The position numbers and the translations under genes are program-made. A stretch of 36,928 nucleotides of DNA. Source: Parashewanella hymeniacidonis. GTDB lineage: Bacteria; Pseudomonadota; Gammaproteobacteria; Enterobacterales; Shewanellaceae. Location: positions 1-36,928 of the forward strand of contig NZ_JAFEUN010000041.1 of the NCBI RefSeq assembly GCF_016900895.1, given 5' to 3'. Below are positions 11,022 through 35,711 of the stretch, in pieces (position 1 is the first letter of the stretch; each line of letters starts with the position of its first letter). The notes under the pieces were generated by a model. It was not told the origin of the DNA, searched no databases, and saw nothing but the letters and a program-made list of their open reading frames with translations.

Positions 11022-11288
11022 TATACCCATGATACCTGAAGATGCTCGATTTCAGCGAGAATGCACAACTTGTTAATCAAGGCTACGGTGTGCGGCAATA
11101 GTGAACTATTGTTAGCACTGGCAACGAAGAGTAACAAGCTGTGCAACTCGCACTGCGTGGACTTCTCAGCGCCAATTCTTCTTTGTTACATTAGCTCGAA
11201 AGAATCACGATATTCCTTCGCTAATGCGCCTCAAAGAATTGGCGCTGAAAAAGTCCTGAAACATGCATCTTCAAGTATCATGGGTATA
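11022..11288. mobile_element. MITE-like element, copy 1 (267 bp)
   Basis: The element starts TATACCCATGATACCTGAAG and ends in the inverted complement, with 24-bp terminal inverted repeats that differ at one position. It is about 98% identical to 35446-35711 (four substitutions, one 1-base indel). No transposase is encoded. Inside are further inverted repeats: 11063-11075 with 11132-11144, CAATAGTgaACTATTG at 11096-11111, and 11159-11180 with 11234-11256, which would fold into several hairpins. The ends can be read as TA + TACCC, so a TA target duplication of the IS630/Tc1 kind is possible. It sits between prpF and the convergent ankyrin gene and may act as a two-way terminator. Confidence 0.85.
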
Positions 11289-11327
11289 AGCCCTTTTTTA
11301 ATCTCGCAATGTGTTCAAAACAATACG

Positions 11328-12521
11328 TTATGCTGCGCCAGCGGCAACTCCTCCACCAACAGATTGGCCACCTCCAGTGATGTTCATCATTAATGCGTGT
11401 AATGATTGATCGGCATTATTCAGCAATTTGGTATTGGTTCCCGCAGTAACCAGTTTCTTTACTGCTTCAGGGTTATCCATTTTCGCTGAAATTTGTGCTG
11501 CAGTATTGCCATTTTGATCTTGGGCATCTAATGCGTCTTGATTGGCATGCTTCACTAGAAAATCCAAAATATCATTACTTTTTTTCTCAGCAGCAAGATG
11601 AAGCGGCGTTTTGCCTGCATCATTACGAATAAAAGCATTATCACCAACCGCTTTCATCATGGCTTGAACGGTCGCAAGCGAGCCGCTTTTTACGGCTAAA
11701 TGAAGAGCATGATTGCCGTAATCGTCGAGCTCTGCGGGATTAAACTTTGGATTACGTTTAGCCGCAAGCTCTTCCGCCAAGTCAGCATTACCTTTTAATG
11801 CTACTATATGAAGAATATTTCGACCGTGTACATCCACTTCTCTAGGGTTAACACCTTTGTCTTTCACCTTAAGCAGCTTGTGCGCTGTATCGAACTTATT
11901 TTGATTAACCGCATGAAATATAGGGCTATTTTCAGCTTGGCTAGACTGGTGTTTAGGGTATTGTAAGGCTTCTTCTTGTCTCGCTTTCAACGTTTGCAGC
12001 GCTTGTTCCATACAAAACTCAGCCCAAGCAGGATTGTTTCCTTGTTCGGGCAAAAACAAAATCGTTAAACGTGCGATATCATCCATCGAAATGGCATCAC
12101 CTGACTCGGCAAGAGTCTCGTTATACTGCTCTAGATTTCTACGCATACCTGTATATACGTGATTTTTTAGATAATCATCAGAAAAGCGCTTGAATTTCGA
12201 CTTGCTGTCATCGAATGCACCAGCCATGTATTCATCAACTTGCGATAATAAGACTTGCTTCGCTTGATCGGATATTGGCAGACGGTGTTGGATTTGCGCT
12301 TTTAAGTTTTTCGCTTGCTGCTTGTAGTGCTTTGTAAATGGCGCATACTTATCTGAAGCTTTAAACTCATCAATAGTCATCCCGTTAAGGCTAAAATCTA
12401 CCTCATCGGTAATTTCTCTTTCTAAAGTCGTTTGCTCAAGCTGACGAGCGTAATCTTGCCGAGCTAAACGCTCTGATGCAGGAATTCTTGTCGCTGCATT
12501 TATGGCTGGCATTATTGGCAT
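11328..12521 (-). CDS. Ankyrin-repeat protein of unknown function
   Basis: The product has 397 residues. Residues 1-195 are helical, charged and unrecognised. Residues about 198-368 form five ankyrin-type repeats: SPIFHAVNQNKFDTAHKLL, then NILHIVALKGNADLAEEL, HALHLAVKSGSLATVQAMM, TPLHLAAEKKSNDILDFLV and a degenerate NTAAQISAKMDNPEAVKKL. A short Gly/Ala tail (GGGQSVGGGVAAGAA) ends it. No signal peptide or membrane segment is visible. Ankyrin arrays bind proteins; in host-associated bacteria such proteins are sometimes secreted effectors, but that is only a possibility here. The start at 12521 has AGGT about 11 bases upstream; Met4 is an alternative. It is convergent with prpF across the MITE. 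Confidence 0.8.
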   Translation of the reverse strand: MPIMPAINAATRIPASERLARQDYARQLEQTTLEREITDEVDFSLNGMTIDEFKASDKYAPFTKHYKQQAKNLKAQIQHRLPISDQAKQVLLSQVDEYMAGAFDDSKSKFKRFSDDYLKNHVYTGMRRNLEQYNETLAESGDAISMDDIARLTILFLPEQGNNPAWAEFCMEQALQTLKARQEEALQYPKHQSSQAENSPIFHAVNQNKFDTAHKLLKVKDKGVNPREVDVHGRNILHIVALKGNADLAEELAAKRNPKFNPAELDDYGNHALHLAVKSGSLATVQAMMKAVGDNAFIRNDAGKTPLHLAAEKKSNDILDFLVKHANQDALDAQDQNGNTAAQISAKMDNPEAVKKLVTAGTNTKLLNNADQSLHALMMNITGGGQSVGGGVAAGAA

Positions 12522-12608
12522 ACATCAATACCTAGATTTAAAGGCTTAGAACTTCAAATTAGGCGATTTTTCCAGCATTATCAATAAAAATTAATGAAGT
12601 TTAAGTTT

Positions 12609-12634
12609 AAAAAAGGCGCAATTAGCGCCTTTTC
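12609..12634 (-). terminator. Rho-independent terminator of pmbA
   Basis: On the minus strand this reads AAAAGGCGC-TAATT-GCGCCTTTTTT, a GC-rich stem followed by six T residues, starting a few bases after the pmbA stop codon. It is a textbook intrinsic terminator and separates pmbA from the ankyrin gene. Confidence 0.9.
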
Positions 12635-12640
12635 AATAAG

Positions 12641-33538: not shown

Positions 33539-35332
33539 ATGGCTGCGAATACTGCCATTGCTGAACGTCTGTATGCCGTCCGCACTGAGATGCGTAACCA
33601 GAGCATTGATGCTTTTATTGTACCTAGAGCGGATGAATATCTAGGTGAATACGTTCCTGCACACAATGAACGTCTATTATGGACAACAGGTTTTACTGGT
33701 TCAGCCGGTGCTGCCATCATTTTAAAACGTACAGCGGCGATATTTACCGATGGTCGTTATACTGTTCAAGTTCGTCAACAAGTGGATGCTGAACATTTCG
33801 ATTTTGAAAGTCTAACTGATACCCCTCAGGTTCAGTGGTTGATTCAAAACCTAAAAGCAGGCAGCAAAGTTGGTGTTGATGCTAAATTACACACCTATCA
33901 ATGGTTCAAAAGCGCTGAGCTTGAGCTTGCTAAAGCAAACATTGAACTGGTGTCAGTTGCAAAAAACCCTATCGATGCATGCTGGCAATCACGCCCAGTT
34001 AAGCCTACCGATGCGATTCATATTTTTGCTAATGAAAAAGCAGGAAAAACCAGTCAAGAAAAACGCACTCTCATCGCAGAAAAGATTACTGAACATCATG
34101 CTGATGTTGCGTTAATCACAGCGCTAGACTCTATCTGTTGGTTACTCAACATTCGTGGTAACGATGTGCCACGTTTGCCTGTAGTCCTATCAACGCTATT
34201 AATCGATGCCGAAGGTAAAGTTAAGTTATTCGTTGACTTAAATAAGTTACCAGACAATATCGAAGCGCATGTGGGTAAAGGTGTCACCTTTTACGCAGAG
34301 ACAGAGCTTCAAAACCACTTAGCCCTGCTCGAAGGTAAAAAGCTACTGGCCGATCCAAACACAGCCAACGCTTGGACACAGCTAACGGCTGAAAAAAACA
34401 GTGCACAGCTCGTTGCAGCGGATGATCCTATCGCCATCATCAAAGCTCAAAAAAACGAATCTGAATTATCAGGAATGAAGGCTTGCCATATTCGTGATGG
34501 CGTTGCGGTTTCTAAATTCTTAGCCTGGCTTGATAAAGAAGTTCATTTAGGTAACCTTTTTGACGAAGGCCAGCTCGCAGATAAATTAGAAAGCTTTAGA
34601 AAATTAGACCCTCTTTATCAACAGCCAAGTTTTGACACTATTTCGGCCGTTGGTGGCAATGCAGCTATGTGCCATTACAACCATATGAATGGTAAGCCTG
34701 CTGTCATGCCAATGAATTCGATTTATCTGGTGGATTCAGGCGCACAATACCTTGATGGCACAACCGACATTACTCGAACGGTTGCCATTGGCAAAGTCAC
34801 TGCTGAACAAAAACAAATGTTCACTTTGGTTCTGAAAGGCCACATAGCATTAGATAAAGCCCGCTTCCCTAAAGGTACATCTGGTCAGCAATTAGATACA
34901 CTTGCTCGTCAATATTTATGGCAATATGGATTCGACTTCGACCACGGTACAGGTCATGGGGTTGGTCACTACTTGAACGTACATGAAGGACCACAGCGTG
35001 TTGCCTCCAAAGGCAATGCTGTTCCACTACTGGAAGGCATGGTCATTTCTAACGAACCGGGGTACTACCGTGCCAATGAGTTCGGTATTCGTATAGAAAA
35101 CCTCATATACGTTACTCAGTGCACTAAGCTATTCCAACCTGAGCGTGAAATGCTGAGATTTGAAGCATTGACCATGGCTCCTATCGACCATCATTTACTC
35201 GATAAGTCGCTGATGACTGAAGCAGAGATCCGCTGGTTGAACAGTTATCATACAACGGTCTTAGACAATCTATCTTCTCATTTGAATGATGAAGATCTGG
35301 CTTGGCTAAAGCGCGCAACTGAAGCAATTTAA
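33539..35332 (+). CDS. Aminopeptidase P-like M24 peptidase (three-domain XPNPEP1 type)
   Basis: The product has 597 residues from ATG 33539 (GGAGAG just upstream); the longer frame from 33449 has no ribosome-binding site. It is of the long, cytosolic-type aminopeptidase P form with two creatinase-like N-terminal domains (about 1-300) and a catalytic domain. Metal ligands are Asp399 (LVDSGAQY), Asp410 (TTDITRTV), His473 (GTGHGVGHYLNVHEGP), Glu506 (SNEPGYY) and Glu520 (IRIENLI). It releases an N-terminal residue that precedes proline, in peptide recycling. It is transcribed away from the shorter M24 gene and ends in a terminator-like hairpin. Confidence 0.92.
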   Translation: MAANTAIAERLYAVRTEMRNQSIDAFIVPRADEYLGEYVPAHNERLLWTTGFTGSAGAAIILKRTAAIFTDGRYTVQVRQQVDAEHFDFESLTDTPQVQWLIQNLKAGSKVGVDAKLHTYQWFKSAELELAKANIELVSVAKNPIDACWQSRPVKPTDAIHIFANEKAGKTSQEKRTLIAEKITEHHADVALITALDSICWLLNIRGNDVPRLPVVLSTLLIDAEGKVKLFVDLNKLPDNIEAHVGKGVTFYAETELQNHLALLEGKKLLADPNTANAWTQLTAEKNSAQLVAADDPIAIIKAQKNESELSGMKACHIRDGVAVSKFLAWLDKEVHLGNLFDEGQLADKLESFRKLDPLYQQPSFDTISAVGGNAAMCHYNHMNGKPAVMPMNSIYLVDSGAQYLDGTTDITRTVAIGKVTAEQKQMFTLVLKGHIALDKARFPKGTSGQQLDTLARQYLWQYGFDFDHGTGHGVGHYLNVHEGPQRVASKGNAVPLLEGMVISNEPGYYRANEFGIRIENLIYVTQCTKLFQPEREMLRFEALTMAPIDHHLLDKSLMTEAEIRWLNSYHTTVLDNLSSHLNDEDLAWLKRATEAI

Positions 35333-35339
35333 TCAATGC

Positions 35340-35380
35340 TATGCCTGAGCAATCATTTCCTCAATGACTGTTCAGGCATA
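35340..35380 (+). terminator. Hairpin after the long M24 peptidase gene
   Basis: TATGCCTGA (35340-35348) and TCAGGCATA (35372-35380) form a perfect 9-bp outer stem, with an inner TCATT/AATGA stem. It lies 7 bp after the stop codon. No T tract follows, so it is a structured 3' end of moderate terminator quality. Confidence 0.5.
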
Positions 35381-35445
35381 AGACCTCGTAAACTATCTCT
35401 GGCTCCTAGTAACCCGCTGCACGATATGGACCCAAGTTTCTTTTG

Positions 35446-35711
35446 TATACCCATGATACCTGAAGATGCTCGATTTCAGCGAGAATGCACAACTTGTTAA
35501 TCAAGGCGACGGTGTGCGGCAATAGTGAACTATTGTTAGCACTGGCAACGAAGAGTAACACGCTGTGCAACTCGCACTGCGTGGACTTCTCAGCGCCAAT
35601 TCTTCTTTGTTACATTAGCTCGAAAGAATCCCGTATTCCTTCGCTAATGCGCCTCAAAGAATTGGCGCTGAGAAAGTCCTGAAACATGCATCTTCAAGTA
35701 TCATGGGTATA
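35446..35711. mobile_element. MITE-like element, copy 2 (266 bp)
   Basis: This copy has the same orientation as 11022-11288, is about 98% identical to it, and carries the same 24-bp terminal inverted repeats. Its long right-half stem is formed by 35583-35604 with 35657-35679. No transposase. The right end is fused to the 3' end of a MaoC-like remnant on the other strand. The ends allow a TA target duplication, as in IS630/Tc1-type elements. Confidence 0.85.

Follow-up and report, generated by a model that had tools for sequence, protein, structure and literature searches.

A miniature transposable element of Parashewanella hymeniacidonis with IS630-type ends and a core of paired hairpin arms, probably kept for single-strand folding

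Introduction

The 36,928-nt contig NZ_JAFEUN010000041.1 of Parashewanella hymeniacidonis (assembly GCF_016900895.1), analyzed over its whole length and here called the window, carries two nearly identical gene-less repeats, and the question they raise is what moves them and what their structured interior is kept for. Our analysis identifies the repeats as recent insertions of a miniature inverted-repeat transposable element (MITE) that lacks genes and is present in many copies in this bacterium. The MITE constitutes a new family of a known kind, being non-autonomous, with IS630-type ends and insertion at TA, and its novel part is the interior module, a hairpin arm that occurs as an inverted pair. 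From comparisons of sequences, we consider it probable that the best explanation as a whole holds, namely that of a MITE moved by an IS630-type transposase whose core, the arm pair, is kept for folding as a single strand, presumably RNA.

Results

Insertion at TA and empty sites in a sister genome

A first-pass annotation, made from the sequence alone, had reported two elements about 98% identical at 11022–11288 and 35446–35711, and these boundaries proved exact: copy 1 (267 bp) and copy 2 (266 bp), both on the forward strand, share 98% identity. Each opens with TATACCC and closes with GGGTATA, in agreement with the 24-bp terminal inverted repeats described earlier, and the left and right ends are the same at 23 of 24 positions, the single difference being C/T. 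For copy 1, these terminal repeats span 11022–11045 (+) and 11265–11288 (−), duplicated TA included. The elements, at only 266–267 bp, contain no transposase gene, as had been noted, and the only open reading frames (ORFs) of at least 80 aa that overlap them are 11061–11393 and 35694–35990. The 38-bp piece previously seen at 29671–29708 (+) is likewise real, being the end remnant of a copy that was inserted at TA.

Shewanella sp. OPT22, the nearest relative found, serves as the sister genome, and it lacks an insertion at each of the three window sites. On contig C51 of that genome, the alignment of the left flank of copy 1 ends at position 406129 and that of the right flank begins at 406128, the 2-base overlap being TA; the empty site reads AAAAAGGGCTTTTAACTAAGCCCTTTTTT, which resembles an intrinsic terminator and lies between convergent genes. 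The empty site of copy 2 fits TATACCAG and holds a single TA. Both full copies have duplicated this dinucleotide, which stands once in OPT22 and at each element end here. The suggestion of recent movement is thereby borne out by near-identical copies and unoccupied sites, and so is the TA target duplication that the first-pass annotation had raised. At the place of the remnant, OPT22 has other sequence, with CAGGACTT common to both genomes at the junction; its history was probably an insertion at TA and then a deletion between two copies of CAGGACTT, cutting a dipeptidase gene. A 125-aa leftover of a D-Ala-D-Ala dipeptidase (M15) gene is found at 29768–30145, the upstream part seemingly having been lost by a MITE-linked deletion. 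Five full-length elements are among the matches listed for OPT22, and most of the expansion was probably local to the P. hymeniacidonis lineage.

Copy number and choice of sites

The earlier count of two full copies and one fragment holds for the window and not for the genome, in which 71 full-length sites were read and about 100 copies are indicated. With at most three mismatches, the 24-bp end has 103 forward and 99 reverse matches in the 4.81-Mb genome (reversed control, 0), and these 202 end matches therefore correspond to about 100 copies. Searching with the 267-bp unit returned at least 40 full-length matches at 96–100% identity, the query's own place included, a lower bound for which 40 of 156 candidates were scored. 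The set of 71 was compiled from the window and those loci of the own genome that were fetched, rather than from a full genome listing, and leaves out a 72nd row that lacked element sequence; 44 of the 71 are exactly 267 bp, 61 have both canonical 7-base ends, and no two share a 25-mer in their flanks. All seven single-ended copies that were checked for a hidden transposase are full or truncated MITEs. The assembly is a draft of 307 contigs, several of which (e.g., C8, C10, C34, and C53) end within MITE copies, the repeat itself thus fragmenting the assembly.

Site statistics were taken from rows with clean ends and enough flank only (65 for the hairpin-loop rank and 64 for the ORF test). A T two bases upstream of the TA is common (84 of 130). 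Such figures also bear on the idea of an immobile origin, with each repeat being one copy of a regulatory RNA or terminator tied to its locus. The fold of the element, like that of elements of other genomes, is far more stable than that of shuffled sequence (z score, −12.0), copy 1 is situated within a terminator between convergent genes, and genes are avoided as insertion sites (an ORF of 120 aa or longer encloses 12 of 64 sites, vs 3109 of 5587 control TA sites), all of which would suit an RNA of this sort. The three unoccupied window sites already contradict it, however, as do the lack of any common flank 25-mer among the 71 sites and the absence of a preference for hairpin loops, leaving an immobile, locus-bound origin scarcely credible. 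Separately, terminator-loop targeting was considered as a general rule of insertion and rejected, with the hairpin-loop score of the real TA having a mean rank of 0.503 among nearby TAs at the 65 joined sites (Kolmogorov-Smirnov P = 0.63); copy 1 lies in an intrinsic-terminator loop, and a few other joined sites look similar.

An IS630-type partner

The first-pass annotation had presumed an IS630/Tc1-type partner elsewhere in the genome, and degenerate IS630 copies now lend support to it. A PF13358 search located six places in the genome, three of them with an end of the right kind. On contig C120 of the own genome (G000), the left end of an IS630 element reads TATACCCGTGATCATTGAAGATGC and shares 21 of its 24 bases with the end of the MITE, and the right end on contig C266 reads TATACCTAAGTGAACTCAAGTTGC and shares 16 of 24 (both counted by eye). 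The copies seen in this genome are all broken or cut by contig ends: the best of them (C266) has two stops in its gene, and the gene on C120 (locus L246) is interrupted by an insertion whose 116-aa ORF resembles transposases of the IS200 type.

Beyond this genome, a protein search with the own IS630 over 295 genomes of the order gave matches in 69, distant ones counted, and NCBIfam assigns the four proteins tested to the IS630 family. Within the close subfamily, consisting of the own copy and nine others at 54–59% identity, TATAC ends stand flush around the ~1-kb gene at 10 of 10 loci (at both ends in seven and at one end in three). Six distant loci have other ends instead, with no TATAC ends seen by eye. 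Moreover, an IS630 end in genome G026 equals the end of a 157-bp MITE of the same genome at 23 of 23 readable bases, with one N. Together, these sequence matches support this IS630-type transposase subfamily as the putative mover of the MITE. A different source, an IS1380-type element (L111, among the PF01609 loci), was tried and rejected: 19 bases of the MITE end adjoin its gene, yet the insertion sequence sits inside a MITE copy, because at five other places, spread over two genomes, its end begins beyond those bases and the flanks are other ones.

The core as an inverted pair of one hairpin module

Internal hairpin arms had been noticed before and are present, although their nature as an inverted pair of a single widespread module was beyond the reach of the first-pass annotation. 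A covariance model, R1, was built from left arms only, with no right arm in its training, and it recovers the right arms on the opposite strand (E of about 1e−12) in the window copies and in loci L061–L064, L067, and L068. The layout is therefore end, arm (+), 7-nt linker, arm (−), end, the arms being inverted copies of one 97–98-nt hairpin. In copy 1, arm 1 occupies 11055–11151 (+; 90.7 bits, E = 5.5e−22), the 7-nt linker ACTGCGT 11152–11158, and arm 2 11159–11256 (−; 56.4 bits, E = 1.7e−12). The arms of copy 2 lie at 35479–35575 (+; 93.8 bits, this arm, nearly identical to arm 1 of copy 1, belonging to the R1 training set) and 35583–35679 (−; 56.2 bits, E = 1.9e−12).

Four alignments were examined, of which A1 and A2 were unfitted; A3 and A4, fitted to the model, are biased in its favor, A4 also including some refetched places. 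Across the 59 internal pairs of A1 (42 genus elements), 96.7% of the cells are paired, 33 pairs are changed on both sides, and covariation is 0.387, vs 0.159 when shuffled and at most 0.064 when slid. The left arm measures 97–98 nt in three genera and aligns gap-free outside the loop (A2), with a covariation of 0.447 vs 0.177 shuffled. The fitted alignments gave 93.0% paired cells and a covariation of 0.863 vs 0.209 (A3, 46 arms), and two-sided changes in 35 of 35 pairs with 0.925 vs 0.210 (A4, 67 arms). The covariation of the arm helices exceeds both shuffles and slides, as expected of a structured single-strand motif. An internal-loop motif, AGGC facing AAC, is constant (AGGC in 41 of 46 arms, AAC in 43 of 46), and identity between arms is 47% in the helix columns and 94% in the AGGC/AAC columns.

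Covariation of this sort might also be produced without selection, in arms of no use, by template switching during replication. Such quasipalindrome correction makes two-sided changes, and many of the covarying cells in A1 represent one difference between two clades, as this process would allow. Correction should erase an unpaired loop, yet AGGC and AAC have remained constant while the helices drift; arm length holds at 97–98 nt in most arms; and the excess of G.U over A.C pairs described below would be left without a reason. We consider it quite improbable that the arms are of no use and are kept complementary by correction.

Some variation in the core was observed in related elements. Genus relatives of 279–313 bp (L217, L218, and L226–L229) have the same ends and right arm and a longer, different left arm, as if it had been exchanged or expanded. 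In L068:1504–1837, an element of 334 bp from another genus, the own-strand sequence of the right arm is similar to left arms of G023 and G034, a likeness which suggests that arms change place. Elements of 176 and 167 bp (L258 and L262), with one arm found in each, are possibly shortened forms.

The arm module across Gammaproteobacteria and with other ends

With the own genome counted, R1 finds matches in 50 of 119 genomes (24 of 60 genera) of the order and in 44 of 185 genomes (43 of 177 genera) of the class, where a decoy of the same sequences in reversed letter order matches 0 of 185. The places scored per genome reach at least 34, and a dozen or more copies are often seen. The fetched loci are the best matches, so the following figures describe good matches: close arm pairs are inverted in 42 of 43 rows and have a 7-nt linker in 33 of 43, three pairs being counted twice through a refetched place. 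Among these 33 linkers, 23 read CCNNNGG and six, in the window's genus, ACNNNGT (own count). A further 27 rows show one arm only, in some cases because the second arm fell below the cut-off.

The outer ends of arm-bearing elements differ; read by eye, they begin with TATACCC, TACCAATCCGC, TAGTGTCCTGTC, TAGTACCCC, TACTCCGTCC, GGAGCCTCTGATTAATTC, GAAGCGTTGAACAATTC, or GAGCACCATATAG. Many of them start with TA, which would fit further IS630 groups if the usual target habits of that family apply. In the own genome, contig C79 carries a second kind of MITE with IS1380-like ends, lying within the end of a copy of the MITE described above, and this nested element holds an arm of its own (L328:159–245, E = 6.4e−8). 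Members of this second kind in the genus are L328 itself and L321, L324, and L327 of genome G002, with ends that begin AACCTAAATAAATC and resemble those of an IS1380-type element.

As for the element as a whole, BLAST found matches in 10 of 40 relatives, a phage search found no match, and a plasmid search found one, in Catenovulum adriaticum (70.5% over 47% of the element). Neither the window nor 20 arm-bearing loci gave an Rfam match at the gathering threshold, the best match in copy 1 at E ≤ 1 being mir-974 (E = 0.95). Literature searches, with partial coverage of subscription papers, retrieved no description of the MITE family or of the arm module.

Single strand or DNA

Counted in arm orientation over 49 non-redundant arms, the 28 outermost pairs contain 71 G.U and 10 A.C pairs and 52 other mismatches. 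A double-stranded palindrome should not prefer G.U, whereas folded RNA or single-stranded DNA (ssDNA) should, and the excess in these model-selected arms hints for that reason at a single-strand, probably RNA, fold.

Several observations weigh against the explanation that we favor. The G.U excess comes from arms that were found and aligned by a G.U-tolerant model; it stands at 41 vs 16 in A3, and in the unfitted genus alignment at 24 vs 23 in element orientation and 29 vs 18 in arm orientation. Free energy indicates no common strand: 65 of 65 own copies fold better on the minus strand, and 19 of the 40 relatives in the genus do so on the plus strand. The single-strand step could equally involve ssDNA. 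Among the own-genome IS630 copies found, none intact was seen. R1 has no match in the 157-bp elements of G026 (L066 and L083), so some MITEs with similar ends are without arms.

Part of this evidence bears on the alternative that the arms act as DNA, either as extruded hairpins or ssDNA that join the ends or as sites bound by the transposase or by a host architectural protein, in the manner of a transposition enhancer. The arms lie at a fixed distance inside the ends with the inverted symmetry of a dyad for a protein dimer, the element also folds as DNA (z score, −11.7), and the near-equal G.U and A.C counts of the unfitted alignment in element orientation show no G.U preference. R1 has no match inside nine IS630 copies, eight of them free of internal stops, so the arms go with the MITEs. 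A double-stranded palindrome should, on the other hand, tolerate G.U and A.C equally, at odds with the 71 vs 10 in the model-selected arms, and the arms are found inside ends of several types, IS1380-like as well as IS630-like, and are therefore not tuned to one transposase. We judge a role of the arms as DNA to be somewhat unlikely.

Surroundings of the insertions

Copy 1 was inserted at TA in the terminator loop between a convergent pair, a PrpF-family gene (9830–10999) and an ankyrin-repeat gene (12521–11328), and copy 2 lies downstream of an M24 peptidase gene (33449–35332). Elsewhere in the window, about 2 kb at 30153–32177 is missing from the syntenic region of OPT22 and holds a 619-aa ORF (30166–32025, −) with no Pfam match. 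At 20214–20230, inside a 1409-aa ORF (20074–24303), about 42 bp of the OPT22 sequence is absent, with similar repeats at the junction.

Discussion

Relation to ERIC and other small repeats

The following comparisons draw on the accessible portions of the cited papers. The nearest known system is MITEPlu5/ERIC (RU-1, ISfinder MITEEc1), described with TATACCC ends (the ERIC consensus), TA duplication, a strong fold, and many intergenic copies, all of which recur here (PMC6267812, PMC2759123). MITEPlu5/ERIC ends resemble those of the CCC-type IS630 elements ISPlu3, ISPlu8, and ISPlu19 of Photorhabdus, as do the ends here (PMC6267812); the comparison of CCC-type IS630 ends with ERIC-like MITEs of Photorhabdus is already in print, and the link itself is prior art (PMC6267812). 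MITEPlu5/ERIC differs in measuring 123–127 bp, with ERIC described as one long stem (PMC2267715), whereas the present element has 267 bp and two inverted 97–98-nt arms.

Whether the element could be a long form of ERIC itself deserves consideration. The end of the element and the consensus end of ERIC, TATACCCGTCATATTTCAAGCTGC, are the same at 19 of 24 positions (by eye; consensus in PMC2759123), ERIC duplicates TA and carries GCAAGGC facing AACGCAG on its other strand, and ERIC-like ends are tied in the available account to CCC-type IS630 elements (PMC6267812). The shared features are the ends and the TA duplication, and the 127-bp length and the ERIC core are absent from the element of 267 bp. 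Furthermore, the arm model scores 6.8 bits on one E. coli ERIC (E = 0.7), only the fourth match in its own 1.3-kb locus, and we regard identity with ERIC as unlikely. The idea of ERIC as a one-arm relative was also rejected: the motif likeness was seen by eye, and the arm model gives it no significance on that one E. coli ERIC.

RUP of Streptococcus pneumoniae is similarly a small TA-inserting element, thought to be moved by IS630-Spn1 (PMC2229807); it differs in its 107 bp, and it is likened here by its description and not by sequence (PMC2229807). The stem-loop families Pae-1 and Efa-1, the latter an adjacent stem-loop pair, are also repeated, structured, and partly double hairpins (PMC2267715). 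They are set apart by description only, one module in inverted copies being absent from the portions of the descriptions available (PMC2267715). Correia/NEMIS elements are TA-type MITEs that yield folded transcripts subject to RNase III cleavage, and they serve as a model for the RNA reading (PMC2229807, PMC10969869); their forms of 107–155 bp differ from the present element, and the accessible descriptions do not mention paired arms (PMC2229807, PMC10969869). ERIC in Yersinia contains an RNase E site and, with Correia and its RNase III cleavage, provides the nearest models (PMC10969869, PMC2229807).

A proposed role for the arm pair

Under the explanation that we favor, that of a MITE with IS630-type ends and arms kept for single-strand folding, an IS630-type transposase would move the non-autonomous element into TA, duplicating the dinucleotide. 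Each arm would fold as a single strand, most likely RNA, and the reason for keeping an inverted pair may be that transcription entering the element from either flank would yield RNA with one arm in the working sense, which could be folded, bound, or processed. The most likely use would be the taming or processing of read-through transcripts at insertion sites. In its broadest form, the proposal is that one undescribed 97–98-nt module with the AGGC/AAC loop may form the core of IS630- and IS1380-ended MITEs across Gammaproteobacteria, the inverted pair giving a working copy on either transcript strand, probably as RNA to which a conserved protein of the host or the transposon binds; this we offer tentatively, as a possibility of somewhat less than even weight.

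MITEs are usually viewed as shrunken insertion sequences in which selection acts on the ends only. Here, the ends vary by family while a structured interior module is kept, in 44 of the 185 class genomes sampled. The published connection of ERIC-like ends with IS630 gains a further case in the present family. Overall, whether bacterial MITEs have a function in their own right becomes a testable question, there being a named motif that can be mutated and a bait for finding its binding protein.

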